Shown: one piece after another, positions 38,458-56,805 of the stretch
Layout of the letters: the number at the start of each line of letters is the position of its first letter
Numbering within the stretch: the stretch's first letter is position 1
Assembly (NCBI RefSeq): GCF_947331435.1
Contig: NZ_CAMZOF010000002.1
Coordinates: forward strand, 558,001-622,000
Reading direction: 5' to 3'
Length of the DNA: 64,000 bases
Origin: Pelagibius sp. Alg239-R121
Lineage (GTDB): Bacteria > Pseudomonadota > Alphaproteobacteria > Kiloniellales > Kiloniellaceae
Position numbers and translations under genes: made by a program
The notes under the pieces: model-generated
The model's database searches: none
What the model was told of the DNA's origin: nothing
The model's input: only the letters and a program-made list of their open reading frames with translations

Positions 38458-40515
38458 CTAATCGTCCTTCTTTGCGTCTTTGTTGCTCTTGGCCAGGCTC
38501 TGCGCGTCCTTTGCAGCGCGGAAGACATCGCCCATACGTGCGACATTCGAACCTTCGACACCGATCTCCTTCATCATCTCATCGATCAGCGGCGCCTGGG
38601 CGCGGTACCGCAAAGCGCTCTCGATGACCTCATCGGTAGGCGAGCGCGGTCCGCCATTGCCACCACCGCCGGCCAATCCATCCACATGCAGGATCTTGAT
38701 GCCTTCGATATTTTCCATCGGCCGGACGGACTCGCGGACGATCCCCTCCAAACGCTCGATCAACTTACCGCGTAGCAGGCTCGCGCGAGCATCGTCGGTC
38801 AGGACGTTTTCGGCCTCGTTCATGAGCCGTTGAGCCTCTGCAGCGACCGCGGCTCTGACTTTCTCGGCCTCGGCCGCGATCTTTGCGGTGTCAGCGTCCT
38901 TGGCAGCAAGAAGCCGGTCGATAGCGGCCAAGCGATCTGCCACTTCAATCTCTCGAATGGTCGCGACTTTTTCTTCTGCGATGGCCGCTTCGGCGCGGGC
39001 AGCTTCCGTTGTGACCCTGACCGCCGCTTCGTCGGACTGTTTGTTCAACAGAGCGATCTGCTTGTCCAATTCGGCCAGTTCGATGACCTGCTGACGTTCG
39101 ACATCCAGTCGTTTGAGGTCGCGCTCCAGCAGAATACGCGCCTCGTCCAGCCCCCGGTTCGAAGCAATGCGTGCGCGCTCGACTTCTTCACGTGCGGAAA
39201 TTTCGGCTTCATCCGTGGCCTGGCGTTCCGCGATCTGTTGCGATTTGAGCAGCATCTCGCGATCGATACGAGCCTTGTCGAGCGCCTGTTCCTGCAGGAT
39301 CCGGGCAGCTTCGACTGACTGCCGCGCCGATATCTCGGCACTTTCGATCTGCTGTCCACGGGCGATCTCGCGCGCCTGGGTTTCCTCCTCGGCAACGATC
39401 CGGGCTTCGCGGAGCTGCCTTTCAGACACGATGCGTGCGCGTTCGACATCCTCGTTTGCCGAGATTTCCGCAACCTCGGTGGCATGACGCTGCGCGATTT
39501 GTTGCGATCTGAGCAGCTTCTCCCGCTCGATGCGGGCCTTATCCAGAACCTGTTCCTGGGCGATACGGGCTTTCTCGACGTCTTCGTGCGCCTTGATTTC
39601 GGTGTCCTCCAGAGCAATCCTGCGCTCGATCTCGCGCTTGCGCGTTTCCTGTTCCGTGGAGATCCGGGCACGGGCCGCATCGGCTTCCCGTTCGACCTGT
39701 TCGCGGACGATCTCGGCCCGTTGCGCGGCACGCAAAGCTTCGATGTCTCGTTCCTGGGCCAGGCGCGCGTTCTCGCTTTCTCTCTCAAGATCCAGCGTGG
39801 CCTTTTCCGCCTCCAGGTTACGGCTGCGGATGGCAACCATTGAATCCTGTTCGATATCGTTACGGGCCTTGCGGCGGGTCTCGATCGCCTCAATCAACTG
39901 AGTCAGGCCTTCTGCGTCAAAACGATTGGCCGGATTGAAAAACTCCAAATCCGTTTGATCCAGATCCGTAATGGCAACGGATTCCAGCTCCAGCCCGTTG
40001 CGCGCGAGGACATCCATCGCCCGCGCTTCGACTTCGACAACATAGTCGCCGCGTTTTTCGTGCATCTCGTCCAGAGACATTTCCGCCGCGACAGAACGCA
40101 GCGCACCGATGAACTTACCGGAAAGCAGGTCAGCCAGACCATCCGGGTCCATGGTCCGCCGGCCAAGCGTGGCGGCGGCGGCAGTGACTGCTTCGGGTTT
40201 GGGTGCGACACGCACGAAAAACTCTGCCTCTATGTCTACACGCATACGGTCACGTGTGATGACCGCCTCCTCGCGGCTCCGGCGCACCGGAATACGTACG
40301 ACGTTCATGTTGACCGGCGTCACCTCGTGAATGATCGGCAGCACCAGCGCGCCACCGTTGATCACGACGGTTTCACCACCAAAGCCAGTGCGTACGAATG
40401 AGACCTCTTTGGTCGAGCGGTGGTAAAGCCAATGTAAGAGATAGACGACGACCGCGATGCCGATGATCGCGACGATAAGCCAAAGTATGACCGCGCCGAT
40501 CAGTCCGCTTGTCAT
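38458..40515 (-). CDS. Flotillin-family membrane scaffold protein
   Basis: 685 residues: one N-terminal span (about 6-28), a PHB/SPFH domain (about 32-210, with VRTGFGGETVVINGGALVLP and ITDLDQTDLEFFNPANRFD), then a long Glu/Arg/Ala coiled coil with a 44-residue internal repeat, and a C-terminal helical region. Flotillins oligomerise on membranes and organise transporters or signalling proteins. The usual NfeD partner is absent here; neighbours are a Tm-1-like ABC fusion, a TIM-barrel enzyme and SRPBCC proteins. GGGAGGAG ahead of the ATG supports the start. A scaffold role for the uptake/degradation complex is inference. Confidence 0.9.
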   Translation of the reverse strand: MTSGLIGAVILWLIVAIIGIAVVVYLLHWLYHRSTKEVSFVRTGFGGETVVINGGALVLPIIHEVTPVNMNVVRIPVRRSREEAVITRDRMRVDIEAEFFVRVAPKPEAVTAAAATLGRRTMDPDGLADLLSGKFIGALRSVAAEMSLDEMHEKRGDYVVEVEARAMDVLARNGLELESVAITDLDQTDLEFFNPANRFDAEGLTQLIEAIETRRKARNDIEQDSMVAIRSRNLEAEKATLDLERESENARLAQERDIEALRAAQRAEIVREQVEREADAARARISTEQETRKREIERRIALEDTEIKAHEDVEKARIAQEQVLDKARIEREKLLRSQQIAQRHATEVAEISANEDVERARIVSERQLREARIVAEEETQAREIARGQQIESAEISARQSVEAARILQEQALDKARIDREMLLKSQQIAERQATDEAEISAREEVERARIASNRGLDEARILLERDLKRLDVERQQVIELAELDKQIALLNKQSDEAAVRVTTEAARAEAAIAEEKVATIREIEVADRLAAIDRLLAAKDADTAKIAAEAEKVRAAVAAEAQRLMNEAENVLTDDARASLLRGKLIERLEGIVRESVRPMENIEGIKILHVDGLAGGGGNGGPRSPTDEVIESALRYRAQAPLIDEMMKEIGVEGSNVARMGDVFRAAKDAQSLAKSNKDAKKDD
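39202..39597 (-). repeat. Three 44-residue (132-bp) repeats in the flotillin coiled coil
   Basis: Residues 307-350, 351-394 and 395-438 align without gaps in a 44-residue period, with a partial fourth unit at 439-469. Shared core: I-x-A-x-x-x-VE-x-ARI-x-x-x-x-x-L-x-x-ARI. Units 1 and 3 are closest (LLRSQQIAQRHAT against LLKSQQIAERQAT), pointing to duplication of a two-unit block. The period equals four hendecads, which suits a right-handed or straight coiled coil. Confidence 0.8.
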
Positions 40516-40531: not shown

Positions 40532-41365
40532 TCAGCGACCGCTAATGGCCTTGAAGGCCCGGGTCTGTTCCGTCAGCGCAACCTCGGTCGGCAGGCGTTC
40601 CATCGAGGAGGCGCCGTAAAATCCGTGGCAGGCTTCTGTATTGTTGAGAACATAGGTGGCATCAGCCGGCATGGAGACCGGACCGCCGTGTACCAGCACG
40701 ATAATATCCGGGTTCACCCGAAGCGCCGCCGCTGCCCAGGCATCCACGAGCGCCGGACAATCCTCGAGCTTAAGCGAGGTTTCCGCACCGATGGAACCAC
40801 CGGTCGTCAGACCCAGGTGGCACACGACGATATCTGCGCCGGCCCTGGCCATCGCCGCGGCATCGTCTTCGCTGAAGACGTAGGGCGTGGTGAACATATC
40901 CTTTTCATGGGCCATCCGAATCACGTCGATCTCCAGGCCGTAGGACATTCCGGTCTCTTCAAGATTGGCCCGAAAAGTTCCGTCGATCAGTCCGACGGTG
41001 GGGAAATTTTGGATACCCGAGAAGCCAGTTCTTTTGAGATCGTCGAGAAAGCTGTCGAACATACAAAAAGGGTCGGTTCCGTTAACACCGGCGAGAACCG
41101 GTGTATTGGGTGCCATGGGGAGGACCTCGGGTGCCATCTCCATTACGATCTCATTTGCGTTGCCGTAGGCAAGCAGACCGGAGAGTGAGCCGCGCCCCGC
41201 CATGCGGTAACGGCCTGAGTTGTAAATTACGATCAGATCGATCCCGCCGGCCTCTTCGCATTTTGCAGAGAGACCGGTGCCCGCGCCGCCACCGATAATG
41301 GGCTCGCCGTTTGTTTTCATTTGCTGAAACTTTTCCAGCATGACGGAACGCTCAAAGCGCGGCAT
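40532..41365 (-). CDS. Phosphoenolpyruvate hydrolase-family TIM-barrel protein
   Basis: About 277 residues from ATG 41365, with GGGAGAG ahead. The barrel has [39 protein letters not shown], a conserved DPF at 98-100, NFPTVG at 120-125 and [12 protein letters not shown] near the end. It belongs to the PEP-mutase/isocitrate-lyase-like family called PEP hydrolase; activity of most members is unproven. In tomato Tm-1, a homologous barrel is fused behind the UPF0261 domain; here it follows a Tm-1-like gene and overlaps it by 14 bases. Two more copies of the fold occur in this locus, at 48164-48874 and 48897-50633. Confidence 0.85.
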
Positions 41366-43676
41366 GTCGCTCTCTCCCAAGATAACTGTCGATTTCTGCT
41401 AAAGCGGCGATCGCTGCTTGGGCGAAGGCCTGGTCGTTGATGTTATGCGGCAGGCGTAGAAGGCGCCGGTTGCCTGTCTCTTTAAAGCCGCGTGCGATTG
41501 CGTCGAAGAGTGCCTGATCGGCCTCGGGATCGTGGAAGACCTGCCCTGGTGCATCCAGCGCCGATACACCGCCCTCCGGCAGCAGAAAGCGCACAGGTCC
41601 TTCCATTTGATTCAGGCGCTCGACGATCCACTGCCCCATCAGCCGGTTCTCTTCAGCCGTCGTGCGCATCAGCGTGACCTGTGGATTATGTTCGACGAAG
41701 GTGCGGCCTTTATACTTCTGCGGCACGCTTTCCGGCGCACCGAAGTTCACCATATCGAGTGCTCCAACCGAACCGACGTATGGGACACGCGTGCGGATGA
41801 AGGCGCCGAAACGGTCATCATCGGCGGGAAAGACACCGCCCATCATCATGTCGCAGACTTCCGTGGTGGTCAGATCTATGGCCCCGGTCAGCATCCCACT
41901 GTCGATCAGTTTCTCCATCGAGCGCCCGCCGACACCGGTTGCATGGAATACCAAACAATCGTAGTGGCTGTTTAACTGCGCTGTGATCTGGCTGATAGCT
42001 GTCGTGGTGACACCGAACATTGTCAGGCCAAGACCGGGCAGGTCGGCGTTTTCAGTGCTTATTTTGGCGGTGCCGCCGGATTGCTTAACCATGCCGGCCA
42101 GTGCATTTGCACCATTTGACAACACCTGCCGCGAAATACGGTTCAGTCCCTGCACATCGGTCACCGAATACATCATCATGATGTCCGAAGGGCCGACGTA
42201 TTGCCCCACATCGCCGGACGCCACCGTCGATATCATCACCTTTGGAACGCCGACAGGCAGGCTGCGCATAGCAGGGGTGGCCAGAGCGGTCCCCCCGGAT
42301 CCAGCTGCCGAGATGATGCCGCCGATCCCCTGTTGACGCCGAATCCAGGCTTCGAAAGCCTTGGCCATGGCTCGGACCGATGCGCCGCGGTCACCGGTAA
42401 AGACCGCACTTGCGCCGCCACGATGATAGGCGGCAACCATATGTGGCGGCACATCAGCACTGGACGGCTTTCCTGAAGTCGAAAGATCGACCGTGCGCAC
42501 GGAAAGCTGCTGCGCGGCGATTTGATCGCGGATGTAACGGAGTTCCTTGCTCTTTGTATCGAAGGTGCCAACGACCAGAACCTCTTTGCCGCGGATTTGG
42601 GCCAGTGGCGTCAGCGGTTCCGAGAACATCGGTTCCGGCTTCGCGTCGAAGGGACGGTCCGACAAAGCCACCTTGACGTCTGGATCTTGTGGCTCCACGG
42701 CCGCCTGCGATGGTGTGGTCGGACGGTCATGTTCGTTTCTGGTTTTCCATTCCGCACTGGACCAGCGCGTGGGGGGAACATAGAGCACTTTTTGCGGAGC
42801 AGTTGTTGTCTCCGCCTGAGCTTCAGCATGTTTGGACTCAGCGCCAGGCTTCGCCCCATCTCGAGCTGGACTTGGCGCTGGATCCGGCGCTGGACCGGGT
42901 CCGGCCTCTACAGTCGGCGGCTGGTCGAAATCCTCGTGGGAATGACGTCCGACACCAAGCAAACGCTCCTGCAGGTTCCGGTCATTGGCCAATTGGCGGG
43001 CCGGCATGACACGATTAATCCGGCCGTTCACCATAATCGCAACATCTTCTGCGATTGCGGTTGCGACGCCAATGTTCTGCTCAATCAGCAGAACGGCGAC
43101 ATCGCCTTCTTCGGCGAGTTTGGCCAGCATGCTCTGAACCTGCTGGACGATAACCGGTGCGAGACCCTCGGTGGGTTCATCCAGCACCAGCAACTCCGGA
43201 TCCTGCAACAGTGCGCGGGCAATCGCGACCATCTGCTGTTCGCCACCTGAAAGCTGGCCGCCGCCGTTGCTGCGCCGTTCGGCGAGCCGGGGAAAGGTGT
43301 CGTAAACCCGGTCAATGGTCCAGGTGCTGCCGCCCCTGTCCGAAAGCCTCAGATGTTCATCGACCGTCAGGGACGGCCATAGCCGCCGCCCTTGCGGTGT
43401 ATAGCCGATGCCAAGGGTCGCAATCCGGTGCGGCGGCAGCTTCGTCAGCTCGTCGCCATGGAACCGGATCGATCCGCGGCTTGCCGGCACCAGGCCCATA
43501 ATCGCGTTGCAAAGGGTCGTCTTGCCCATGCCGTTGCGCCCGACAATGGCCTGCACGCCATGTTCAAGCGTAAAATCGACTCCCTGAAGCGCATGCGAGC
43601 TGCCGTAGAACACATGCAAATCTCTTATTTGCAGGACGCTATCTGCAGGTTTCTTACTGCGCCGGCGTTCAGGCAT
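41352..43676 (-). CDS. Fusion: LivF-type ABC ATPase + Tm-1-like (UPF0261) ATP-binding domain
   Basis: About 774 residues from ATG 43676, preceded by GGGAGG. Residues 1-240 are a complete branched-chain-type ATPase: Walker [10 protein letters not shown] (46-54), LSGGEQQ (142-148), Walker B LLVLDEP (162-168). A Pro/Ala/Glu-rich linker spans about 241-360. From 361 ([17 protein letters not shown]) to the end is a Tm-1-like domain, with [19 protein letters not shown] and [19 protein letters not shown] as family marks. UPF0261 proteins bind ATP and have no firm enzymatic role. The fusion makes the Tm-1 domain part of the transporter complex, or at least co-produced with it. Confidence 0.88.
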
Positions 43677-44454
43677 GGCCACCTCCCAGGTAAAGTTCCT
43701 GGACGTCCGGGTCGCTCTCAATTTCTTTCGGGTTGCCTTCTTTGAAGATCCGGCCGTTGTGCATCATGGTAACGCTCTCAGCGACCCGCAGGGCGACATC
43801 CATGTCGTGCTCGATGATGATAAACCCGATGTGCGGAGGCAGTGACTGAAGAATTTCGATGAGCTCGCTTCGTTCCGTCGGCGAGAGGCCTGCTGCGGGT
43901 TCGTCGAAAAGTATGAAGCGTGGCGCACCGGCCAGAGCCAGGGCAATTTCGAGCTGGCGCTGCTGGCCGTGGCTGAGCTCCGCAACCAGGCTGTCGCGAA
44001 CCGCACCGAGATGAACAGCATCGAGCAGAGTTTCGGCAACATGTGTCATGGCGTCATCGGGCTTTGGCCGGCGCAGGGACAGGCGTCCCCGGCTCGCACC
44101 GCGACAGGCCAGATAGACATTGTCGACGACACTCAGGCCGTCGAACAGAAGTGAAATCTGATAAGTGCGCCGCAACCCGCGGCGAATTCTTTCATGGACC
44201 GGAAGATCGGTGACGTCTTCGCCAAACAGCCTGACCCGGCCGGTCGTGGGCGGAAAATCTCCGGTGATTGCATTGAAGAGCGTTGTTTTTCCGGCACCAT
44301 TGGACCCCAGAACCGCACGCCGCTCACCCGCCTTAACGGTGAGATTAATGTCCGCCAGGGCCACCAGCGCGCCGAAATGGCGGCTGACGGCCTCGAGTTC
44401 CAGCGCATATTGGCCGGTACTCTGCAGACGGGTAAGGGCGTCGGTCCGGAGCAC
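43669..44454 (-). CDS. livG: ABC transporter ATP-binding protein, LivG type
   Basis: About 261 residues. LEAVSRHFGALVALADINLTV is the usual LivG opening; Walker A GSNGAGKTT, the LivG-specific insert RRTYQISLLFDGLSVVDN, signature LSHGQQRQLEIALAL and Walker B FILFDEPAAGLSP follow. I prefer the GTG at 44454, with GAGG eight bases ahead, over an ATG at 44502 inside the binding-protein gene. It overlaps the LivF/Tm-1 fusion by eight bases. With LivF it powers uptake by LivHM. Confidence 0.85.
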   Translation of the reverse strand: MLRTDALTRLQSTGQYALELEAVSRHFGALVALADINLTVKAGERRAVLGSNGAGKTTLFNAITGDFPPTTGRVRLFGEDVTDLPVHERIRRGLRRTYQISLLFDGLSVVDNVYLACRGASRGRLSLRRPKPDDAMTHVAETLLDAVHLGAVRDSLVAELSHGQQRQLEIALALAGAPRFILFDEPAAGLSPTERSELIEILQSLPPHIGFIIIEHDMDVALRVAESVTMMHNGRIFKEGNPKEIESDPDVQELYLGGGHA

Positions 44455-44464
44455 TAAGTCAACC

Positions 44465-45715
44465 TCAACCGCACTTGGGATTTTCGCGGCTGACCGGGCC
44501 ATACTTCAGGAACTCATCGTAGGAAACGCCGAGGGTCTGACTGACCGAAGGAATTACCTTGATGGTCTTGTTGAGCAGATTGCCGTCCGGCCCCTCGCTT
44601 ACCTCTGTGAGGAAGATGTCGGCAACGGCGTTGCGCCGCTCATCCAGTTTCACCATGCCCGTCGGCGTCTCGAAGGAAAGGCCTGACAATACTGCGCGGT
44701 ACTTCTTGCCGCCGTCCGAAAGATCGCCGCCGACTTCGTTAAGCGCCAACAGGGCCGCCTTGGTATTGATGTAGTAGGCGTGCGCGAACAGCGATGGGGA
44801 AGGAAAGCCGTCCGGGAACTGCGCCTTATAGGCTTCCACGAACTTCTGCCATCTTGCGTCGTCCCAGGTATCCGAGATGGGGCCCGCAGAAGGTGTGCCG
44901 ATTACGAAGTCACGGGTACGGCCTTTGGAACCCAGTACTGTCTGATCAACCGTGATGGACCCGCCGACCAGGGGAAGATCGCCACCTGCCTGCTCGTACT
45001 GTGTGAGGAAATTGACCGCATCCGCGCCGCCCAAAGCGACGTAGATGGCATCGACGTCATCCGGCAGCGCTGCGATGACAGAAGAGTAGTCCTTGTTGCC
45101 GATCGGCACCCAGAATCGCGCATCGGCCGGAGCTTTACCGCCGAGACGGCAGAAGGGTTCCAGAAATCCGAAGACCTGGGTGTAAGGGAAAGAATAATCC
45201 TCGGCTAGTACCGCTATACTGCGATAGCCTTTTTCGTTGTAGACATACTCTCCCAAGCCCGCCATCCACTGCGCGCCCTCGGTACCGAAACGGAAAAAGT
45301 TCTCCGCCGGCTCGCGCAGCGTCGTGTCCTGGGCGGCCGAAGATCCATTCAGGAATGTGACGTTCGGCTTGGTCTTGGCGTAATCCTTAACCGCAAGGCC
45401 TTCCGAGCCCGACAGCGGTCCAACCAGCACCTGTACGCCGTCCTGCTCGACCAGTTTCCGAGTGGCGCGGATGGCACTGTCCGGTGAGGCATCAGACGAG
45501 CCAGTGATCAGTTCGATCTTTTTGCCGCCCGCTGTATATTTAAACTCTTCCAGGGCCAGCTTGACCCCGCGCATGCTGTCTTCGCCCAAGACCGTGAAGG
45601 CGCCCTCCAGGGTCGCAAGTGCGCCCATCTTGATGCTGTCGTCTTGCGCCATTGCAGGCCCGGCAAGTACGGCCGCGATGGCGGCGGCTATGAGTGTGCG
45701 ACTATCGGGTATCAT
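44465..45715 (-). CDS. ABC transporter substrate-binding protein, LivK/family-4 type
   Basis: About 416 residues from ATG 45715, after GGGAGGAAA. The signal peptide runs to PAMAQDD; the mature domain starts SIKMGALATLEGAFTVLGED and has VQVLVGPLSGSEGLAVKDYA as usual for Leu/Ile/Val-family binding proteins. Many members bind aromatic acids, amides or urea rather than amino acids, and the enzymes in this operon support such a ligand. It stands between livM and livG, which matches operons for aromatic-acid uptake. It sets the specificity of the system. Confidence 0.87.
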   Translation of the reverse strand: MIPDSRTLIAAAIAAVLAGPAMAQDDSIKMGALATLEGAFTVLGEDSMRGVKLALEEFKYTAGGKKIELITGSSDASPDSAIRATRKLVEQDGVQVLVGPLSGSEGLAVKDYAKTKPNVTFLNGSSAAQDTTLREPAENFFRFGTEGAQWMAGLGEYVYNEKGYRSIAVLAEDYSFPYTQVFGFLEPFCRLGGKAPADARFWVPIGNKDYSSVIAALPDDVDAIYVALGGADAVNFLTQYEQAGGDLPLVGGSITVDQTVLGSKGRTRDFVIGTPSAGPISDTWDDARWQKFVEAYKAQFPDGFPSPSLFAHAYYINTKAALLALNEVGGDLSDGGKKYRAVLSGLSFETPTGMVKLDERRNAVADIFLTEVSEGPDGNLLNKTIKVIPSVSQTLGVSYDEFLKYGPVSRENPKCG

Positions 45716-45771
45716 CTTTTTTTCCTCCCTTTTTAGGTTTACCGTGCTCGGGCGCGTTCGCCTGATCCCGG

Positions 45772-46803
45772 TCAATGCACGCCGCTGCCGTCCGACTGCG
45801 GGTGTTTCCTGAGCCTGAGTCTCTCTCTGATTCTTGCCCAAAGCCCAAGAAGGCCGTCCGGTGAGAACAAAACGACCAAAAGAAATGCTGTGCCGATGAC
45901 TGTGTTGAAGCGCTCGCGGTCGATCAGATCGATGGCGAAGTTCTCCAAAAGAACGAATGCAAGCGCACCGACGAATGGGCCAATCGGATGCCGCATACCC
46001 CCCACAACGGCAATGACGAGGATATCGATTACAACATCGACGCCGACCGAACCGGGGGAGATCCGCCCATTGAACCAGACCATCAGAACGCCAGCGGTTC
46101 CCGCGATCAGACCGGACAGAAAATAGGCGAAGATCCGGTGCAGTGTGACGTCGTATCCGATGGCGCGCATGCGCCGGGGATTGTCACGGATGGCCTGTAG
46201 ACTCAGCCCGAAGGTCGAGCGCGCGCCATAAACCACCATGAAGAAAAAGAAGGCCGCAACCGCGAGGCTGAGATAGTAAAATGGCGTGGGATCGCGCCAA
46301 TAAATGCCAAACAGGGTCGGTGGAACCACCCCGGCGTAGCCCGTAAATCCATTAAAGATGACGTAATTCTGGCGGACGAAGTAGAAGAAAGCGACTGCGA
46401 TCGCCAGCGTGATCATGATGGTATAGATGCCTTCGGTCCGCACCGAGATCGCCCCGATCAGCGCACTGAAAACCGAGGCTGCAAAAATCGCCGTGAGCGC
46501 AGTCAGCCACCAAGGCCAACCAAGGCCCATCACACCGACAGAGTTATGTCCGAGAATTGCCATCAGATAGCCCGCCAGTCCGGCGACCGTCAGTTGGGAC
46601 AGGCTCACCATGCCGCCGTAGCCGGCCAACATCACCAAGGACAGCGCAATGGTGCCCAGCACCAAAGAGTAGGCGCCGATCTGAAAAACAAAGAAGTCTG
46701 AGGCGAAGGCAGGATAAAAGAGGAGAAACAGCACGGTGATTGCGGCTGCCGGGTGAATGTTCGGCAGCACGCCTTTCCCGGCGATGAGGCTGATATTCGC
46801 CAT
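45772..46803 (-). CDS. livM: Branched-chain-type ABC transporter permease, LivM
   Basis: 343 residues with eight or more hydrophobic spans. The cytoplasmic loop RDNPRRMRAIGYDVTLHRIFAY is the LivM EAA-equivalent, and GGMRHPIGPFVGALAFVLLE follows. It lies three bases after livH and 56 bases before the binding protein, in one transcription unit. It forms the inner-membrane channel with LivH. Confidence 0.9.
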   Translation of the reverse strand: MANISLIAGKGVLPNIHPAAAITVLFLLFYPAFASDFFVFQIGAYSLVLGTIALSLVMLAGYGGMVSLSQLTVAGLAGYLMAILGHNSVGVMGLGWPWWLTALTAIFAASVFSALIGAISVRTEGIYTIMITLAIAVAFFYFVRQNYVIFNGFTGYAGVVPPTLFGIYWRDPTPFYYLSLAVAAFFFFMVVYGARSTFGLSLQAIRDNPRRMRAIGYDVTLHRIFAYFLSGLIAGTAGVLMVWFNGRISPGSVGVDVVIDILVIAVVGGMRHPIGPFVGALAFVLLENFAIDLIDRERFNTVIGTAFLLVVLFSPDGLLGLWARIRERLRLRKHPQSDGSGVH

Positions 46804-46806
46804 GGC

Positions 46807-47817
46807 TCAGCTACTCCCCATGATGCCCTGGGGGCGCACAGCCAGTACCACCACCATAATCAAAAAGGTCAGAACCACGCCGTAGGTCGGGAAGTAAGCC
46901 AATCCGAACTGCTCGGCCAATCCAATCAATAGCGCGCCGATAGCGGCGCCCGGTACCGAACCCATGCCACCGACGATCACCACCACGAGGGACGCCAGCA
47001 GGTAGCGGATATCTTCGCCGGGTGCGATCGATAGTGCAGTGCCACCGATGACGCCGGCAAAGCCCGCCAGGCCGGCGCCGATTGCAAACACCATCGCGAA
47101 GACGACCTGAACGTTGACGCCGGTTGCCGCGAGCATGTCACGGTCATTAACGCCGGCACGGATCATCATGCCGATGCGGGTCCGGTTCAGGAACAGCCAG
47201 AGTGCGATGCCGACTGCGATGGCAACCGCGAGTACGGCCAGACGGTAAATCGGGTATTTAAGGAAAACTTCTTTTCCCGAAGACCTGATGGTCGAGATTA
47301 TCGGGAGTTCAGCCGCCCCGAACAGCCATTCGGGCGGCGCGAACTGATAGGTCGTACCAGACCAGATTGCCAGCATCAGGTCGGCTGCGACGATGGAAAC
47401 GCCGATGGTGACCAGAGTTTGCCGCAGGTCGTCGCCTTCCATCCGCCGGAAAACCAGTACCTGAAGCAGGATGCCGGCGAAGGCAATTGCGATAAAGGCT
47501 GCACCAAGACCAACGAACCAGTTGCCCGAGGCTTCGGCGGCCTCATAGCCTATGTAAGCACCCAAGAGATACATGGAACCGTGGGCCAGATTGACGTTGC
47601 GCATCAATCCAAAGACGAGCGTAAAGCCGCTGGCCACCAGGAAGTAGAGGCCGGCCAAGGTCAAGCCATTGAGAAAAGTGTTTACGAAGGTCTTTTTACG
47701 GCCGATTGCCGAGATCAACCAGTCGGGCCAGACAGCAAAGATCATCCATAAAAAGATCCCCGCCACGATCAGAATCATGATCGCCCAGAAGGTATGACGC
47801 TCGATGAAGCGCCTCAC
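46807..47817 (-). CDS. livH: Branched-chain-type ABC transporter permease, LivH
   Basis: About 336 residues from GTG 47817, which has GGAGGG seven bases ahead; a TTG at 47838 is less likely. The hydrophobic protein carries the LivH marks GLTLAGLYFLVASGFTLVFG near its front, MIRAGVNDRDMLAATGVNV as the ATPase-contact loop and GGMGSVPGAAIGALLIGLAE towards the end. It is the first gene of the 12-gene operon; its upstream region is shared with a divergent TIM-barrel homologue. Confidence 0.9.
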   Translation of the reverse strand: MRRFIERHTFWAIMILIVAGIFLWMIFAVWPDWLISAIGRKKTFVNTFLNGLTLAGLYFLVASGFTLVFGLMRNVNLAHGSMYLLGAYIGYEAAEASGNWFVGLGAAFIAIAFAGILLQVLVFRRMEGDDLRQTLVTIGVSIVAADLMLAIWSGTTYQFAPPEWLFGAAELPIISTIRSSGKEVFLKYPIYRLAVLAVAIAVGIALWLFLNRTRIGMMIRAGVNDRDMLAATGVNVQVVFAMVFAIGAGLAGFAGVIGGTALSIAPGEDIRYLLASLVVVIVGGMGSVPGAAIGALLIGLAEQFGLAYFPTYGVVLTFLIMVVVLAVRPQGIMGSS

Positions 47818-47838
47818 CTCGCTGCCCTCCGCGCACAA

Positions 47839-48163
47839 GTAATCTCGCCAGGGAGGGCGCGTTGCCGATAGGCTCGGTCAGAGCTGCGGCAGATTGTTGT
47901 TCCCGGTAAACTAGGCGCGAAACGAAACGGCATGGTCGTGAACGCCATGATCAATTCTGCCTCCCTCAAGGCCGCCTCATTCCAGTGAAACGGCATTATA
48001 TTTTTGGGTAAGTCCGAACCTTTTTCCCTGGCAATAATGCCTGGAGCGCTCACGAACTTCCGCTGCAGCCTTTTTGGCGTTGCCATGAGTGTGTAGAGTA
48101 AAATTATTGGAAACAACCTAGATTGAGCGTAAATTCGGGTAATATTGGGTAAAATTTTAAGCA
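47839..48163. promoter_or_regulatory. 325-bp divergent promoter region with GGGTAA repeats
   Basis: This space separates livH (minus) from the TIM-barrel homologue (plus). GGGTAA occurs three times in the same orientation: 48006-48011, 48137-48142 and 48147-48152; the last two are one helical turn apart. GGCA-ATAA-TGCC at 48030-48041 is a small perfect inverted repeat. I found no -24/-12 pair of the TGGCAC-N5-TTGC form, in line with a regulator that lacks the sigma-54 contact loop. The operon promoter must lie here. Confidence 0.55.
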
Positions 48164-48874
48164 ATGCTACGGAATCACTTGACTTGGGATATCACCCTGC
48201 GCAGGGAGTCACAGTGGGAAAGCGGTGCTTTGCCGCCTGCGATCCTGACTGCGGGACCCAGATTCCACGACACGGGGATGCCAGATGAAATTGCTTTGCT
48301 GCTGCCCAACAACGACGGGGCATCAGCACTTATATCTGAGGTTGCGTCGAACCGCTCCGACTTGGGGAAACGGGCCATCGGCCTGTTCCTTGCCGATCCG
48401 TTTTTCCATGCCGGCAGAGAAGCCGGCCGGTTGCGTGACGCCGGGATCGAGTGGATAGCCAATCTCCCGACAGTCGAACAACAAGACCACGAGTTTGTGC
48501 AGTTGCTTGGTGACGTCGGACTCGACCGCAGCTTGGAGTTCGAGAGGCTCGGGGCCCTACAAGAATCTGGTTTCAATTCGATTGCTGTTGTCGCTGGCAG
48601 GGAAGCTGCCGAGGCGGCCGCCAGAATCAGTCCGCAAGCGATCATTGTGATACCGCGTGTTGTCGATTTTGCGGCCGGCTTTCCATCCTTTCGCCAGCGC
48701 GGCGCCGCGGCGCGGGATGTTGCCGAGGTACTACGTGCTGCCGGATGGCACGGTCCGGTCCTTGGACTTGCGGCAGAAACAGAGGTTGGGCACGAAACGC
48801 TCTGGCCCGACGTGTTGGACGGCGTCGTCTGCCGTCCAAAACGGCTGAAAACCGCCGGAGTGGAACCACAATAG
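48164..48874 (+). CDS. Divergent PEP-hydrolase-like TIM-barrel protein (degenerate homologue)
   Basis: 236 residues. At first sight unrecognisable, but its core lines up with the operon's TIM-barrel enzyme: DPF at 78-80 and NLPTV at 100-104 have exactly the spacing of DPF 98-100 and NFPTV 120-124 there, and SLEFERLGALQESGF corresponds to [15 protein letters not shown]. The front, where the enzyme has IIGGGAGTG and a glycine-rich site, is shortened and altered, and the end stops before the [12 protein letters not shown] segment. It is thus probably inactive as an enzyme and may be a binding or regulatory partner. The start is uncertain; ATG 48278 is an alternative. It is convergent with the regulator gene. 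Confidence 0.65.
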   Translation: MLRNHLTWDITLRRESQWESGALPPAILTAGPRFHDTGMPDEIALLLPNNDGASALISEVASNRSDLGKRAIGLFLADPFFHAGREAGRLRDAGIEWIANLPTVEQQDHEFVQLLGDVGLDRSLEFERLGALQESGFNSIAVVAGREAAEAAARISPQAIIVIPRVVDFAAGFPSFRQRGAAARDVAEVLRAAGWHGPVLGLAAETEVGHETLWPDVLDGVVCRPKRLKTAGVEPQ

Positions 48875-48896: not shown

Positions 48897-50633
48897 CTAA
48901 CCTTTGAGACCGTACTTCGCCATTTTGTTGTAAAGCGTCTTGCGGGAAATCCCCAGAGCTTCAGCCGTGCGCGTCCGATGAAAGCCGTTGCGCCACAGCG
49001 CTTCGACGACCCGGTTCTTTTCCGTGCGCGCATCGCTTTCACCCGGATCGGGACTTTTAAGCAATTCTGCGATGTCCTCTGGTTGGATCGGCCCCGGTAG
49101 TTTTCGACCCGCCAGGTTTCCCAAAAGAGCACGCAGTTCCGCTTCATTTCTAGGCCAGGTATGCGTGCTGAGAAGCTTTTTGGCTGCTGCGGAGAAGACA
49201 CTGCGCCCATCGGCATTTGGGTTAAGAGCTGCAGCATTTGTGACAAGAAGGGCAGGCAAATCCTCGATCCGTTCCCGCAAAGGCGGCAACCGCAAAGTCC
49301 AGCCCGCCATAACCCGGGAGAGCTCGAGACTGGAAGAGTTTTGCTCGGCACCGCCCCGGTCCCAGTCGTCAGCGACCAACACCACGCGGGGCAATATCTG
49401 GCGGCGTCGGCGGCTGCCGGTCACAACGAAGTTTCCCTCTCTTAGAGCACGTGCCAAGCGGCGTTGTACGGTTGCCGGCAGGGCGCTCGGCGCGTGAACA
49501 ATGATCATGCCCAAGCCATCGTCCGCGAGCGCACCGGAATTCAAGCCGCCTTGCTCGGCGGAGCCGAAGAGTTTGCGCCCGACTCCCGCCGGAAAATCCT
49601 CGGACAAGAGGTCGATTTCCAGAACCGTCTTTTTGCCGCGCGCGCTTTGACTGGCCAGTGCGGCGATGGTCGGGCCGACGTCGACACCCGGCTCGGCAAT
49701 AACCATGACCGGCGTGTGCAGGCTGGCAAGCGCGCGAAGCCGGCGCAGGAAACCAACCAAAACACTGGATCGGCCGATAAATCCGCAGCGTTGTCCCCAG
49801 GAAACCAGTTTCGCACTCTCGGCATCCAAAGCCACACGCCGCTTGCTGGCCCGCCGGTAGGCATCGATCTGATCGGCAACGGAAGCCTCAAACGGCAGTC
49901 TCTCGATCGTAGAACCACCGACATAGCCATCGATCGGTGCACGCGCTGTCACGCGCCCCAGATCTTCAGCTGTTACGATTGGCCCGCCTTCCAACAGAAA
50001 TGCGACATCAGGATGAATACGCTTGATCAAGCGGCCGATTTCGCGGGCGACCGACGCCGTCTCCTCGATCGACGCGCGCATCCGATGACCAAAGGCGCCG
50101 CCGGCGTTCCAACCGAGATTGAGACAGACCATATCCAGCCCGGCATCTGCACCGAGCCGCGCCTGGGTACGGGTCGCACAGTAAAACATCGTCGTCAGGC
50201 CCACGTCCTGCACGGCCCGCAGGAGCTCGACTTCCTTTTCCATGCCACGCCCGGCACGCGAGAGAAGCTGTTGCATGGCGTGGGAATAGTGCATGCCGCT
50301 CGGAAAATTCACCGCGCCTGCGAAGCCGCTGCGTTTGACCTGCTCCGCGATTTCGGCTGCGTCACAGCTTTCCCCCCAGGCGTTGACGCCGAGAAGGACA
50401 GGCACTTTGCATTGCGGCAGCAGTTCACTCAGCGCAAAACCCTGCGTAAGAGGCGCCGCATCATGGATCGGCAACATGCAGGCGATTGACGGGGCCCCCA
50501 TGTTCCGCAACCGTCCGGCATTGATCGCCAGCAGGAAATCCGCGCCGCCCCGCTCGGCAGCAAGCGCCGCATTCCCTGAACCAATAGCGGCACCAACTAA
50601 GAACTGCGCCCCCGAATTCGGAAAGTGTTTCAT
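48897..50633 (-). CDS. Regulator: TIM-barrel sensor + degenerate AAA+ + Fis-type HTH
   Basis: 578 residues. Residues 1-275 are a PEP-hydrolase-like barrel (NFPSG 109-113; GYVGGSTIERLPFE mirrors [14 protein letters not shown] in the operon enzyme). Residues 285-500 follow a sigma-54 activator AAA+ domain, but Walker A is ruined (AEPGVDVGPTI, no GK), the GAFTGA loop is absent, and Walker B reads IVHAPS instead of LDEIG; WTLRLPPLRERIEDLPALL is kept. Residues 535-578 are a Fis HTH (HRTRTAEALGISRKTLYNKM). It should bind DNA without hydrolysing ATP or contacting sigma-54. It lies next to the operon it probably controls. Confidence 0.85.
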   Translation of the reverse strand: MKHFPNSGAQFLVGAAIGSGNAALAAERGGADFLLAINAGRLRNMGAPSIACMLPIHDAAPLTQGFALSELLPQCKVPVLLGVNAWGESCDAAEIAEQVKRSGFAGAVNFPSGMHYSHAMQQLLSRAGRGMEKEVELLRAVQDVGLTTMFYCATRTQARLGADAGLDMVCLNLGWNAGGAFGHRMRASIEETASVAREIGRLIKRIHPDVAFLLEGGPIVTAEDLGRVTARAPIDGYVGGSTIERLPFEASVADQIDAYRRASKRRVALDAESAKLVSWGQRCGFIGRSSVLVGFLRRLRALASLHTPVMVIAEPGVDVGPTIAALASQSARGKKTVLEIDLLSEDFPAGVGRKLFGSAEQGGLNSGALADDGLGMIIVHAPSALPATVQRRLARALREGNFVVTGSRRRRQILPRVVLVADDWDRGGAEQNSSSLELSRVMAGWTLRLPPLRERIEDLPALLVTNAAALNPNADGRSVFSAAAKKLLSTHTWPRNEAELRALLGNLAGRKLPGPIQPEDIAELLKSPDPGESDARTEKNRVVEALWRNGFHRTRTAEALGISRKTLYNKMAKYGLKG

Positions 50634-50750: not shown

Positions 50751-51377
50751 TCACAGGCTTTCCAACCGGGCCCGATGCGCCTTGCGAATATGGAGCCTTG
50801 CGTACTCTTCCGCTTTGTCGAGATCGCGCGCAGCAACCGCCTCGATAAGGCGGCTGTGCTCTTCCACCGCACCGGCTCTGCGGTCTGGGTCGGTAAAGGT
50901 GGTTCCGTCCAGGAGCAAAAGGTACTGCTTCATATGCTCAACCTGCAGGACCAGATAACGGTTGTGCGAAGCCAGGGTCAAGCGGCGATGAAACACCCGA
51001 TTGGAGGCAACCAGTTTGTCGACTTCATCGATGATCTCGCGATCGGCAGCGACCCCGTCTTGCAGGATCGCGATTTCAACATCGGTCGCATGCTGCGCCG
51101 CAAAGCGAGCCGCAGTGCCTTCGAGCACTTCTCGAACCATATAGAGCTGGTTGATTTCATCATGCTCGAGGGTGGGAATAACCATGCCGCGATTGGGCTC
51201 ATGGCGCGCCAACCCCTGCGCTTCGAGCTGCTTTAAGGTTTCGCGGATTGGCGTGCGGCTGACGCCGAAACGTTCCGCCAACTCGGTTTCGCGCAAGCGG
51301 TCTCCCGGCTTCAGGTCCCCATCCTCGATCGCCTGGATCAAGAGGGAGTAGATATCCGCCCCACTGCGCGCCTGCAT
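50751..51377 (-). CDS. GntR-family regulator, FCD (FadR) subfamily
   Basis: About 208 residues from ATG 51377 (an in-phase frame reaches 51431). The winged HTH reads GDRLRETELAERFGVSRTPI followed by RETLKQLEAQGL; the all-helical FCD domain then supplies metal/ligand residues (ADREIIDEVDKL... FHRRLTLASHNRY... EEHSRLIEAVAARD). FCD regulators bind small carboxylic acids. It is divergent from a 2-hydroxyacid dehydrogenase, with a tandem 10-bp site between, and lies on the same strand as the TIM-barrel regulator 117 bases downstream. It probably represses the dehydrogenase unit and itself. Confidence 0.88.
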   Translation of the reverse strand: MQARSGADIYSLLIQAIEDGDLKPGDRLRETELAERFGVSRTPIRETLKQLEAQGLARHEPNRGMVIPTLEHDEINQLYMVREVLEGTAARFAAQHATDVEIAILQDGVAADREIIDEVDKLVASNRVFHRRLTLASHNRYLVLQVEHMKQYLLLLDGTTFTDPDRRAGAVEEHSRLIEAVAARDLDKAEEYARLHIRKAHRARLESL

Positions 51378-51404
51378 CACCTTCCATTCTTCTCTTGCCA
51401 ATAT

Positions 51405-51424
51405 TGCATACAAATGCATACAAT
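51405..51424. promoter_or_regulatory. Tandem 10-bp operator of the GntR protein
   Basis: TGCATACAAA-TGCATACAAT: two 10-bp units in direct repeat, one helical turn apart, lying 20 bases before the dehydrogenase start and just before the GntR start. TGTAT/ATACA cores are typical of FCD-type GntR sites. Confidence 0.7.
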
Positions 51425-51444
51425 TCAACACAAGAGGGACGAAT

Positions 51445-53658: not shown

Positions 53659-54750
53659 CTAGTTCGCGGGCCAGACATCGTCGGGAATACAAACGGATCC
53701 GGCGAAGAGCTTGCGCGCCGTACGCAGCAGGCCGGCGGACTTCAGGTAAAACTCGCCGTTATCCAATGCATAATCGAAGACAACGTCGATGGCGCCTGAC
53801 GGATGTTCGATCTTAAGTGGAAGCGGTCGTTCATCGCTTAAATGCTCCAACCCCTCTGCGACGGTTCCCGGCGCCAGCACGCAGGAGCCCGTGCAGATTG
53901 ACCCAGTGACGGCATAGCTTGGATGACATTTCCACGGCATCAGGTAGCGCGCAGCGATGGCGCCACCTGCGCGAGGTGAAGCCAGCAGACCAACTTTTGG
54001 CACGACGGATTCAGCGACATTCGAAAAACCCATCATCTCGCCGGCTTTGATCCGGATAGGCTCGATTAGAGCAAAAAGCGCTTCGTTTGCATCGACTTCC
54101 TCCCGGCTTTCGTAACCGGTAAGGCCGAAGTCCTCTGCGCGGCCAATCATCATCGGCATCGCAACATCGATACAAGTCACCGCTTTCCCGTCAATCACAT
54201 CGATTGGCTTGCCGGTTGGAAAGAGCTTACCTGTTTTCGACCCAATCACATTCATGAAGTTCAGGATCACAGGTGCGGCTGTTCCGGGGACACCGTCAAT
54301 ACGGGCGTCTCCCTGGTAATTGACTTTGCCAGCCGGTGTCTCAACCTTCGCTTCAATCAAAGAATCGGTGTTTACATTGCGGATTTTGATTGAGGTAACA
54401 TCACCTTGAGGCTCTACCAACCCCAATTCCAGTGCCGCCGGACCAACCCCTGCCAGGATATTCCCGCAACTCGGAGAGAAATCCACTTCAGGCTTTTCCG
54501 CATGGACCTGAGCAAAGAAATAGTCGACTTCCGCCCAGTCGTCTTGCGAAGGTGACAGCATTGCAACTTTACTGGTTGTCGGTTGCCCGCCACCGATACC
54601 GTCCACCTGAAGAGGCGATCCCGCTCCCATTGCCGAGATCAAAACCTGCGCAAGCTGATCGAGATCTTCGGGCAGATGGGCTGCATTGAAGTACGGCCCA
54701 CGAGAGGTTCCGCCGCGCATCACTATGCAAGGAATGTCCAGTTGGGGCAT
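53659..54750 (-). CDS. 4-oxalomesaconate tautomerase / PrpF family isomerase
   Basis: 363 residues of the PrpF (diaminopimelate-epimerase-like) fold: IPCIVMRGGTSRGPYFNAAH at the front, VDGIGGGQPTTSKVAML, and SPSCGNILAGVGPAALELG carrying one of the two catalytic positions. Relatives include GalD of gallate catabolism and PrpF aconitate isomerase. It lies 30 bases behind the TctA-TctB gene in one operon, so it probably isomerises the tri- or dicarboxylate imported by the Tct system. Assigning GalD rather than PrpF needs phylogeny. Confidence 0.82.
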   Translation of the reverse strand: MPQLDIPCIVMRGGTSRGPYFNAAHLPEDLDQLAQVLISAMGAGSPLQVDGIGGGQPTTSKVAMLSPSQDDWAEVDYFFAQVHAEKPEVDFSPSCGNILAGVGPAALELGLVEPQGDVTSIKIRNVNTDSLIEAKVETPAGKVNYQGDARIDGVPGTAAPVILNFMNVIGSKTGKLFPTGKPIDVIDGKAVTCIDVAMPMMIGRAEDFGLTGYESREEVDANEALFALIEPIRIKAGEMMGFSNVAESVVPKVGLLASPRAGGAIAARYLMPWKCHPSYAVTGSICTGSCVLAPGTVAEGLEHLSDERPLPLKIEHPSGAIDVVFDYALDNGEFYLKSAGLLRTARKLFAGSVCIPDDVWPAN

Positions 54751-54780: not shown

Positions 54781-56805
54781 TCAGCGACCGCCAAAGGGCC
54801 AGGGAAGCTCAACGAAATTCTGTAGCAAACCGGGCGGAAAGTCGCGGTTTAGAACTCCAGCCATCAACAGCATGAAGCCGACGCCACCAATCGTCATGAC
54901 GGCAATGCTTTGCCAGCTCGCCCCCGCACGCACCCGGAGGAATGCAATGAAGAAAAGAACCAAAGCAATGACGAAGCCAAAGAGCGCCGTGAGAACCAGA
55001 AGCGAGATGAACCAGGCCAGAGTCGGCCACAAGCCAATGGGCGCCGTCGCGTCCTCGCCGTGCCGTTCGCCATCTGAGAAGACAACGTCGGTCTCCGGCC
55101 TCAGACGCATCTGAAGCAGAAGTATCACAGCCCCCAGCAGCGACAGGCCCGCAACGGTGACCGGAAAGACCTTGTCGATCAGGACACTCACGGAAATTGC
55201 GTCTGCGAAAGCCGCAGCAAGGAACGCAGTTACCAGCAGCGCAAAGATCAATGGTCCGCGTTTATCCCCGGTCTCCGGCTTGGACTCATCCTGGTGCAGT
55301 GTCGAAGACTGCCGCATGCCCAGCCAAACCGACGCAACGATAATCGCGATAAGGATCAGTCCGACGGGCGTGAACAGATAAGACAGCATTCCTTCCAATC
55401 CACCCGTCCGGCCCTTGACCATGGCGATCTGGGTCGCCTGGTAGGCATAGACTTCGGCTTGATCCGCAAGCACGAAACCAATCAGGAACGCCGGCCGAGA
55501 CCAGTCGAAACGCCGCATGAAGATGCCCAACAATCCAATGGCAACCAAGGCTCCCAGATCCCAAAGCGTTTGTTTCGACTGAAAGGCTGCGAACGAGATC
55601 ATCATGAAGAGGAAAGGCACCAGCAGCGGAAAGCGGATAGTGGTCAGCCGGGCGATTCCACCGGAAAGAAAGATGCAGAGTCCTGCACCCACCACGTTGG
55701 CGAGCGCCAGCGACCAGACCACCGTATAGGTGATGGGAAGGTCGTTGCTGATCATCTGGGGGCCGGCTTCATAACCCAGAAGAATCATTCCGCCAATGAA
55801 CACAGCCATCGAACCGGAACCGGGAATACCAAAGAGGAGCGTGGGCACCAGTCCTCCGCCCTCTTTCGCGTTGTTTGACGATTCCGGGCCGATCACCCCG
55901 CGAATTTCACCATTCCCGAAGCGGCTGCGGTCCTTCGTCGTCTGTACGGTATGGCCATAGGCGATCCAATCCACGACCGAACCGCCGAGTCCGGGAATCA
56001 CGCCAACGACAACACCGATTGCCGCACAACGAATGGAAAGCCATCTGTTGCGCCACCAGTCCGCGATGCCGTCTCCCCAACCGGCGCCCAGCTTCGCATC
56101 CTTGGCGATGGCGCGATCCTGACGCAGGAGCGAAATGATCTCCGGCACCGCAAAGATGCCCAGGCCGATCACTACGAGGCTGAAGCCGTCCTGCAGATAC
56201 CAGGACCCGAAGTCAAGTCGCGCCGAACCTTGGGCCGGCGCTTCACCAATCGCACCGACGGTCATACCCAGCCCGACCGCGATCAGGCCTTTCAGCAGGC
56301 TACGGCCCGCGAGCACGCCCACCATCGAGAAACCAAGAACCGTGAGCAGCAACAACTCCGGCACGCCGAAGGCAAGCACCAGAGGACGCGCAATCAGGAT
56401 AAAAAATGTGAGGACGACTGCGCCGAACAAGCCGCCGAAGAGCGAGGAAACGAAAGCCGCAGCGAGCGCCCTTGCCGCCTGTCCCTGTTTGGAAAGCGGA
56501 AAGCCATCGAGGACTGTCGCCTGTGACGCCGACGATCCGGGGATGCCCAGCAGCACTGACGCGAAGGTGTCGGAGGTCGGGATCACCGCCACCAGGCCGA
56601 CCATCAGGGACAGCCCCGAAACCGGATCCATACCGTACACAAAAGGTAATACCAGTGAGAGACCGGCAATGCCGCCGAGCCCTGGGAACACGCCAACGCA
56701 AAGTCCGAGCAGTACGCCACCCGCCAGGTATCCCATCGCCGTTGGGGTCAGGATAAGCGAGAAGGCTTCGCTCAACGCCGGCAAGGCGATTGAGAGCAAG
56801 TCCAT
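54781..56805 (-). CDS. Tripartite tricarboxylate transporter, TctA-TctB fusion
   Basis: 674 residues. Residues 1-500 are TctA, with the hallmark GVFPGLGGIAGLSLVLPFVYG, SVLLGIPGSSASQATVLDGF and its internal repeat GVIPGLGGSVVDWIAYGH... LFGIPGSGSMAVFIGG. After a polar linker (about 500-520) come four spans of a TctB-like small subunit. TctA and TctB are normally separate genes; the order A-B in one chain fixes the stoichiometry. It works with TctC downstream of its own signal and depends on ion gradients rather than ATP. It follows tctC after an intercistronic hairpin. Confidence 0.88.
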   Translation of the reverse strand: MDLLSIALPALSEAFSLILTPTAMGYLAGGVLLGLCVGVFPGLGGIAGLSLVLPFVYGMDPVSGLSLMVGLVAVIPTSDTFASVLLGIPGSSASQATVLDGFPLSKQGQAARALAAAFVSSLFGGLFGAVVLTFFILIARPLVLAFGVPELLLLTVLGFSMVGVLAGRSLLKGLIAVGLGMTVGAIGEAPAQGSARLDFGSWYLQDGFSLVVIGLGIFAVPEIISLLRQDRAIAKDAKLGAGWGDGIADWWRNRWLSIRCAAIGVVVGVIPGLGGSVVDWIAYGHTVQTTKDRSRFGNGEIRGVIGPESSNNAKEGGGLVPTLLFGIPGSGSMAVFIGGMILLGYEAGPQMISNDLPITYTVVWSLALANVVGAGLCIFLSGGIARLTTIRFPLLVPFLFMMISFAAFQSKQTLWDLGALVAIGLLGIFMRRFDWSRPAFLIGFVLADQAEVYAYQATQIAMVKGRTGGLEGMLSYLFTPVGLILIAIIVASVWLGMRQSSTLHQDESKPETGDKRGPLIFALLVTAFLAAAFADAISVSVLIDKVFPVTVAGLSLLGAVILLLQMRLRPETDVVFSDGERHGEDATAPIGLWPTLAWFISLLVLTALFGFVIALVLFFIAFLRVRAGASWQSIAVMTIGGVGFMLLMAGVLNRDFPPGLLQNFVELPWPFGGR

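Follow-up and report, generated by a model that had tools for sequence, protein, structure and literature searches.

A TIM-AAA-Fis protein as a predicted σ54-independent activator of a liv-type transporter/Tm-1-like/PEP_hydrolase operon in Pelagibius

Fusions of a TIM barrel, an AAA+ domain and a Fis-type helix-turn-helix (HTH) are labelled in databases either "phosphoenolpyruvate hydrolase family protein" or "sigma-54-dependent Fis family regulator". One of them, P0001, is encoded in the window analyzed here, a stretch of 64,000 nucleotides from Pelagibius sp. Alg239-R121, and it raises the question of which genes such a protein regulates and whether it does so with σ54. Based on comparative sequence analysis, we suggest that P0001 is likely a ligand-sensing, one-component and σ54-independent activator of the adjacent operon for a liv-type transporter, a Tm-1-like protein and a PEP_hydrolase-like enzyme. 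The gene and its parts are:

48897-50633, minus strand: TIM-AAA-Fis regulator P0001, 578 aa (intact frame, ATG start)
49854-50606, minus strand: TIM-barrel (PEP_hydrolase-like) sensor domain, residues 10-260 (PF09370, E 1e-58, Pfam)
49116-49781, minus strand: degenerate σ54-activator AAA+ domain, residues ~285-506 (profile models and fold match to NtrC1 AAA+)
48900-49034, minus strand: Fis-type HTH, residues 534-578 (Pfam match and alignment)

The Fis HTH, which a sequence-only reading of this locus had called intact, matches HTH_8 (Fis) over residues 537-574 (E 8e-12, Pfam), and its Fis helix reads ISRKTLYNKMAKYGL. The same reading had proposed an HMM alignment of residues 285-500 to σ54 activators. 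NCBIfam σ54-activator models do cover residues 286-503, the PspF model with E 9e-15, far below the equivalog cut-off, while Sigma54_activat (PF00158; E only 0.014) and AAA_lid_14 (E 1e-4) both stay under the Pfam cut-off. The predicted structure of full-length P0001 is of low confidence (pLDDT 57); its AAA+ part matches the NtrC1, FleQ and PspF folds, VpsR is also among the fold matches and, with a TM-score of ~0.7 by target length for the NtrC1 AAA+ domain, the AAA+ fold of the bEBP clade is present.

We aligned 33 full-length homologues from across the Alphaproteobacteria (Kiloniellaceae-like bacteria, rhizobia, Bradyrhizobium, Azospirillum, Bosea, Shinella and Rhodobacterales) together with four genuine GAFTGA activators. 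Reading frames are intact in all relatives, and the gene order around the regulator is kept over a wide clade. Relatives with 80% identity come from Denitrobaculum tricleocarpae and two uncultured Kiloniellaceae of the same genus. Against these genus-mates, pN/pS is ~0.09 for the TIM barrel, ~0.3 for the AAA+ domain and ~0.04 for the Fis HTH, with ~0.07 for livH and the enzyme within the genus; dS is saturated even inside the genus, so that dN/dS is merely indicative. Judged from its sequence, the regulator gene is no pseudogene, and its AAA+ domain is under relaxed but persisting constraint.

Alignment to the genuine activators bears out the claim that the AAA+ domain lacks the Walker A lysine, the GAFTGA loop and the Walker B acid pair. 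Walker A GETGSGK is replaced by AEPGVDV with loss of the lysine, the L1/GAFTGA loop is shortened and missing, and Walker B LDE reads VHA with both acids gone. P0001 is also without the FRxDLxxR arginine-finger stretch and does not retain the sensor II arginine (GNVREL to RNEAEL). GAFTGA is absent from 33/33 full-length homologues; the missing loop is, therefore, a trait of the whole sampled family and not of one protein, which refines the earlier note, and loss of σ54 contact is general. None of the 20 sequences in the window's clade retains the Walker A lysine, the acids of Walker B, the arginine-finger stretch or the arginine of sensor II. Members of the rhizobial-type clade often have a GEAGSGK-like Walker A, and two of them retain LLLDE or LLLDD at Walker B. 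Thus, complete loss of the ATPase site is confined to one clade, which a tree of the AAA+ domains, rooted by midpoint only, sets apart with full support. A search for a GAFTGA-positive TIM fusion in 398 sampled Pseudomonadota genomes returned only the four PF09370 regulators that were already aligned, all GAFTGA-less. By the features tested (GAFTGA, Walker A/B, arginine fingers, sensor II and the -24/-12 element considered below), P0001 falls outside the σ54-dependent bEBPs.

The presumed target operon, with its leader and the distal gene of the block, comprises:

47814-47948, minus strand: leader ORF, 44 aa, with a strong ribosome site (GGGAGG) and a TGA that overlaps the livH GTG start
46807-47817, minus strand: livH-type ABC permease, start GTG at 47817, with which the structural genes of the presumed target operon begin (profile match)
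43669-46803, minus strand: livM, substrate-binding protein and livG of the presumed target operon (profile match)
41352-43721, minus strand: livF fused to a Tm-1-like UPF0261 protein (profile match)
40532-41380, minus strand: PEP_hydrolase-like enzyme (PF09370), a paralogue with the invariant residues intact (sequence comparison)
38458-40515, minus strand: flotillin-like protein, distal gene of the block (conserved gene order)

Loci without the regulator (L135-L140, L143 and L144) have the livF/Tm-1-like UPF0261 fusion too, and the flotillin-like gene is conserved at the distal end of the liv/Tm-1-like/PEP_hydrolase block whether or not the regulator is there. By script, the TGA of the leader ORF overlaps the livH start codon (NTGA) in 12/16 loci; this overlap, combined with a leader peptide that is not conserved, suggests translational coupling.

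The enzyme of this operon belongs to the PF09370 PEP_hydrolase/TIM-barrel signal transduction (TBST) family, which includes Tm-1-like proteins and PDB 2P10 (Mll9387); by sequence or fold, so do the sensor of P0001 and the mini protein described below. A signalling role has already been suggested for TIM-barrel (TBST/PF09370) proteins (PMC5028733). The genome has only three PF09370-like proteins, all in the window: the enzyme, the regulator sensor and a weak third protein, which we refer to as mini:

48164-48874, plus strand: mini, 236 aa, a degenerate TIM barrel paralogous to enzyme and sensor (profile comparison and fold)

Regulator and enzyme match over the full length of the barrel with ~29% identity. 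The segments noted earlier as common to the two proteins lie inside this match, and G236YVGGSTIERLP of the regulator aligns with the corresponding 12-residue segment of the enzyme. When 78 columns that are invariant or near-invariant in 25 operon enzymes were compared with the regulators, the latter were found to retain the pocket-like residues R43, N109, E134, Y151, GG216-217, S241 and ER244-245 (regulator numbering). By contrast, the enzyme-invariant H188 and H231 are replaced by N172 and E215 in the sensor, and Y53, K40 and T192 are swapped for I37, L24 and N176. This pattern is probably that of a binding site minus catalysis, with the catalytic role of the replaced residues being presumed. 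Whole-domain homology, retention of the pocket-like motifs and replacement of the two histidines support the suggestion that an enzyme fold was reused as a sensor.

Mini scores 29.2 bits against PF09370 (cut-off 33.8), and profile comparison relates it, with 99% probability, to enzyme and sensor alike, as a paralogue that is divergent but full-length. Its AlphaFold model (pLDDT 78) has PDB 2P10 as the best fold match. An initial reading of mini as a half barrel was rejected because profile and predicted fold span a whole compact barrel. Mini is without the C-terminal GG and GS-ER motifs and, like the sensor, differs from the PF09370 family in being without enzyme-invariant residues; Pfam detected no HTH in it. 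Mini is present at every regulator locus read, usually adjoins the regulator gene, and is convergent with it in the window. Among the genomes of the order, it is found in 15/15 with and 0/46 without the regulator, a comparison among related genomes that does not count independent events. In the literature searched, we found no description of mini. Its simplest reading would be that of a sensing partner. Only some loci (L037, L038, L064, L067 and L069-L071) have a GntR-type gene next to mini or in the interval from mini to livH.

Two DNA elements lie between mini and livH:

48127-48152, minus strand: candidate operator TTACCC-N4-TTACCC (exact at 48137-48152), followed directly downstream by the degenerate unit TTACGC as a third repeat (conservation)
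48088-48116, minus strand: predicted σ70-type promoter with -35 TTGTTT (48111-48116), 17-bp spacer and -10 CACACT (48088-48093) (aggregate scan)

The candidate operator is a direct repeat with a 10-bp period that is common to the livH upstream regions in the clade; a spacing of 11 bp, which was tried first, was rejected. It lies within 47839-48163, which had been proposed for footprinting, and, like mini, it is an addition to the earlier note. By pattern search, the 8.02-Mb genome has a single exact copy of the motif, the one at the locus (48137-48152). Among 61 genomes of the order, the exact motif is at the locus in 11 of the 15 that have the regulator, with only scattered matches in those that do not. 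Allowing at most one mismatch, 14 loci of the window's clade contain 15 operator sites (0.1 expected), and twelve rhizobial-type loci, which have other transporter types, contain 22 (0.0 expected). At the latter loci, repeat spacings of 8, 9, 11 and 12 bp give 1, 3, 0 and 0 sites, compared with the 22 at 10 bp. The operator is missing from locus L074 and present only as a weak variant at L067. Twelve loci that have the same Tm-1-like/PEP_hydrolase genes but lack the regulator, eight of which share the same liv-type and flotillin neighbours, contain no site in 216 kb. Thus, site, regulator and target genes travel together. Fis-type HTHs usually read inverted, not direct, repeats, and the candidate operator is a direct repeat instead of the inverted repeat typical of this family. 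Co-occurrence and proximity link regulator and operator, and another factor could conceivably bind the site.

The promoter emerged from the sites taken together. At 13 sites of the window's clade, a hexamer that opens with TTG (T 13/13, T 11/13, G 11/13) starts exactly 20 bp past the second repeat, and the hexamer 17 bp beyond it has A at position 2 in 10/13 and T at position 6 in 11/13. An all-offset scan of these sites with 16-18-bp spacers peaks at a 20-bp offset and a 17-bp spacer (z 7.1), and a separate set of 28 rhizobial-type sites reaches its maximum at this offset and spacer too (z 5.8); in the window, the -35 element is likewise 20 bp downstream of the operator. Agreement of the -10 hexamers with the E. 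coli consensus is poor, and support for the promoter is, therefore, aggregate; a per-site search for hexamer pairs with that consensus was uninformative. A σ54 -24/-12 element was sought at the target promoters and nothing consistent was found, with single matches in 1/13 and 1/28 sites, although the Pelagibius genome has rpoN and eleven good σ54 activators. At annotated rhizobial-type loci, 16/20 operators face a co-directional gene starting 80-160 nt downstream that encodes a transporter, Tm-1-like, cupin or amidase protein, mostly a substrate-binding protein, a Tm-1-like protein or a cupin. Loss of the catalytic motifs in a conserved protein, a conserved operator near a σ70-type promoter and the lack of a consistent -24/-12 element all point to the σ54-independent regulator that had been proposed. 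A hairpin-like GCCGTC-N12-GACGGC between promoter and livH is found within the genus only and was set aside.

We suggest the following model. The N-terminal TIM barrel, which derives from the enzyme family of the operon and is probably catalytically disabled, would bind a pathway substrate, product or analogue. The AAA+ domain, predicted to keep its fold without residues for ATP hydrolysis or σ54 contact, would serve as a scaffold for structural coupling and oligomerization. The Fis HTHs would bind the tandem 10-bp repeat TTACCC-N4-TTACCC upstream of livH, identified by its conservation; with repeats one helical turn apart, both HTHs would be on one face of the DNA. We hypothesize that HTHs in head-to-tail order would suit AAA+ packing more closely than would the two-fold dimer usual for Fis. 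P0001 would, in this way, sit ~55-71 bp upstream of the predicted transcription start and 20 bp from the σ70-type -35 element, and the near-invariant spacing suggests a class-I activator geometry with contact to RNA polymerase. In the least certain step, mini would probably join the sensor domain in a complex and gate the response. More tentatively, and with more doubt than belief on our part, one TIM-barrel family may supply enzyme, dead sensor and mini partner in a three-paralogue module, in which a non-hydrolysing AAA+ domain forms the head-to-tail scaffold that aligns the Fis HTHs on the 10-bp repeats and recruits σ70 polymerase independently of ATP. If true, this would be an ATP-independent reuse of AAA+ packing geometry.

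The near-constant spacing between operator and -35 element favours an activator, while repression or a dual role would still be compatible with it. That P0001 represses the operon until a ligand relieves it, or regulates it both ways, in each case through the same operator, appears unlikely to us, even though TyrR, a GAFTGA-less relative, also represses, and even though the operator is 12 bp from the start of mini, which could itself be repressed from this site. Caulobacter NtrC, also GAFTGA-less, represses at some promoters (PMC10274813). However, the repeats end 20 bp upstream of the -35 element in two clades with different target genes, as befits an activator, whereas the sites of repressors tend to cover the core promoter and can do without a set distance; moreover, the operators with a promoter face transporter and Tm-1-like genes, not mini. 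Even less probable is that another protein reads the repeat and P0001 does something else. The GntR proteins would be candidates, since several loci have a gene of this type in the mini-livH interval and a GntR gene (50751-51431) adjoins the regulator in the window, but the operator is present at L062, L063, L066 and L068, whose mini-livH intervals yielded no GntR gene, and it is absent where the enzyme genes stay and the TIM-AAA-Fis protein is missing. Mini, for its part, has no detected HTH with which to read the repeat.

The activator reading has also to be weighed against a residual role for σ54 and against decay. A cell with rpoN and eleven bona fide activators could in principle offer P0001, which retains the AAA+ fold, an AAA+ partner in a mixed hexamer, or P0001 could have residual function of its own; the family-wide absence of GAFTGA, and target promoters with a σ70-type element where a consistent -24/-12 would be expected, make this very improbable. 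We give practically no credence to a regulator decaying toward a pseudogene: nonsynonymous differences within the genus are ~four times as frequent in the AAA+ as in the TIM domain, but frames are intact in all relatives, TIM and Fis domains are strongly constrained, and both synteny and operator are conserved.

The σ54-independent reading has precedents. Several GAFTGA-less homologues of σ54 activators keep nucleotide-binding motifs. Such homologues (TyrR, DhaR, HupR, VpsR, and Rhodobacter and Caulobacter NtrC) act or probably act at σ70 promoters (PMC3162934, PMC10274813), and the alphaproteobacterial NtrC is among those with nucleotide-binding motifs (PMC10274813). Like these proteins, P0001 descends from σ54 activators, has lost the σ54-contact loop and has kept the Fis HTH, and its family probably works, by analogy, as they do. 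However, their input domains are other than a TIM barrel, and P0001 differs further in the loss of all ATP motifs in one clade, the 10-bp direct-repeat operator and the obligate paralogous mini. Regulators with the architecture of P0001, a mini nearby and an operator upstream of a Tm-1-like gene are found on the symbiotic plasmid of Sinorhizobium fredii NGR234 (NC_000914) and beside mll9387 in Mesorhizobium (NC_002679); they differ in that Walker A is partly kept and the transporter is of a different class. The NGR234 plasmid regulator is presumably y4pA. This protein has been called a σ54 factor copy (PMC9069715), a designation that is unsupported by its sequence.

In the literature searched, we found neither a functional study of the fusion family nor a published operator, promoter class or partner for a TIM-AAA-Fis protein. 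TIM-barrel fusions and GAFTGA-less activators were known separately before; complete loss of the AAA+ motifs in one clade, the operator with its promoter and the obligate third paralogue are new. The data, thus, provide a precise DNA site, a promoter and a candidate partner for a family annotated as σ54-dependent in databases, and the regulator offers a way toward the ligand of the Tm-1-like/PEP_hydrolase enzyme pair. Within this one family, AAA+ domains range by degrees from ones still partly intact to ones that are entirely dead, with unchanged operator and promoter geometry, so that the usefulness of an AAA+ domain after loss of ATP and σ54 becomes testable.

Elsewhere in the window, a 4-oxalomesaconate tautomerase (53659-54750, minus strand; above the NCBIfam cut-off) is encoded beside genes for a tripartite tricarboxylate transporter, and TctA and a TctB-like part appear in one protein (54781-56805, minus strand). 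The tautomerase beside the transporter genes suggests a neighbouring aromatic-acid pathway.
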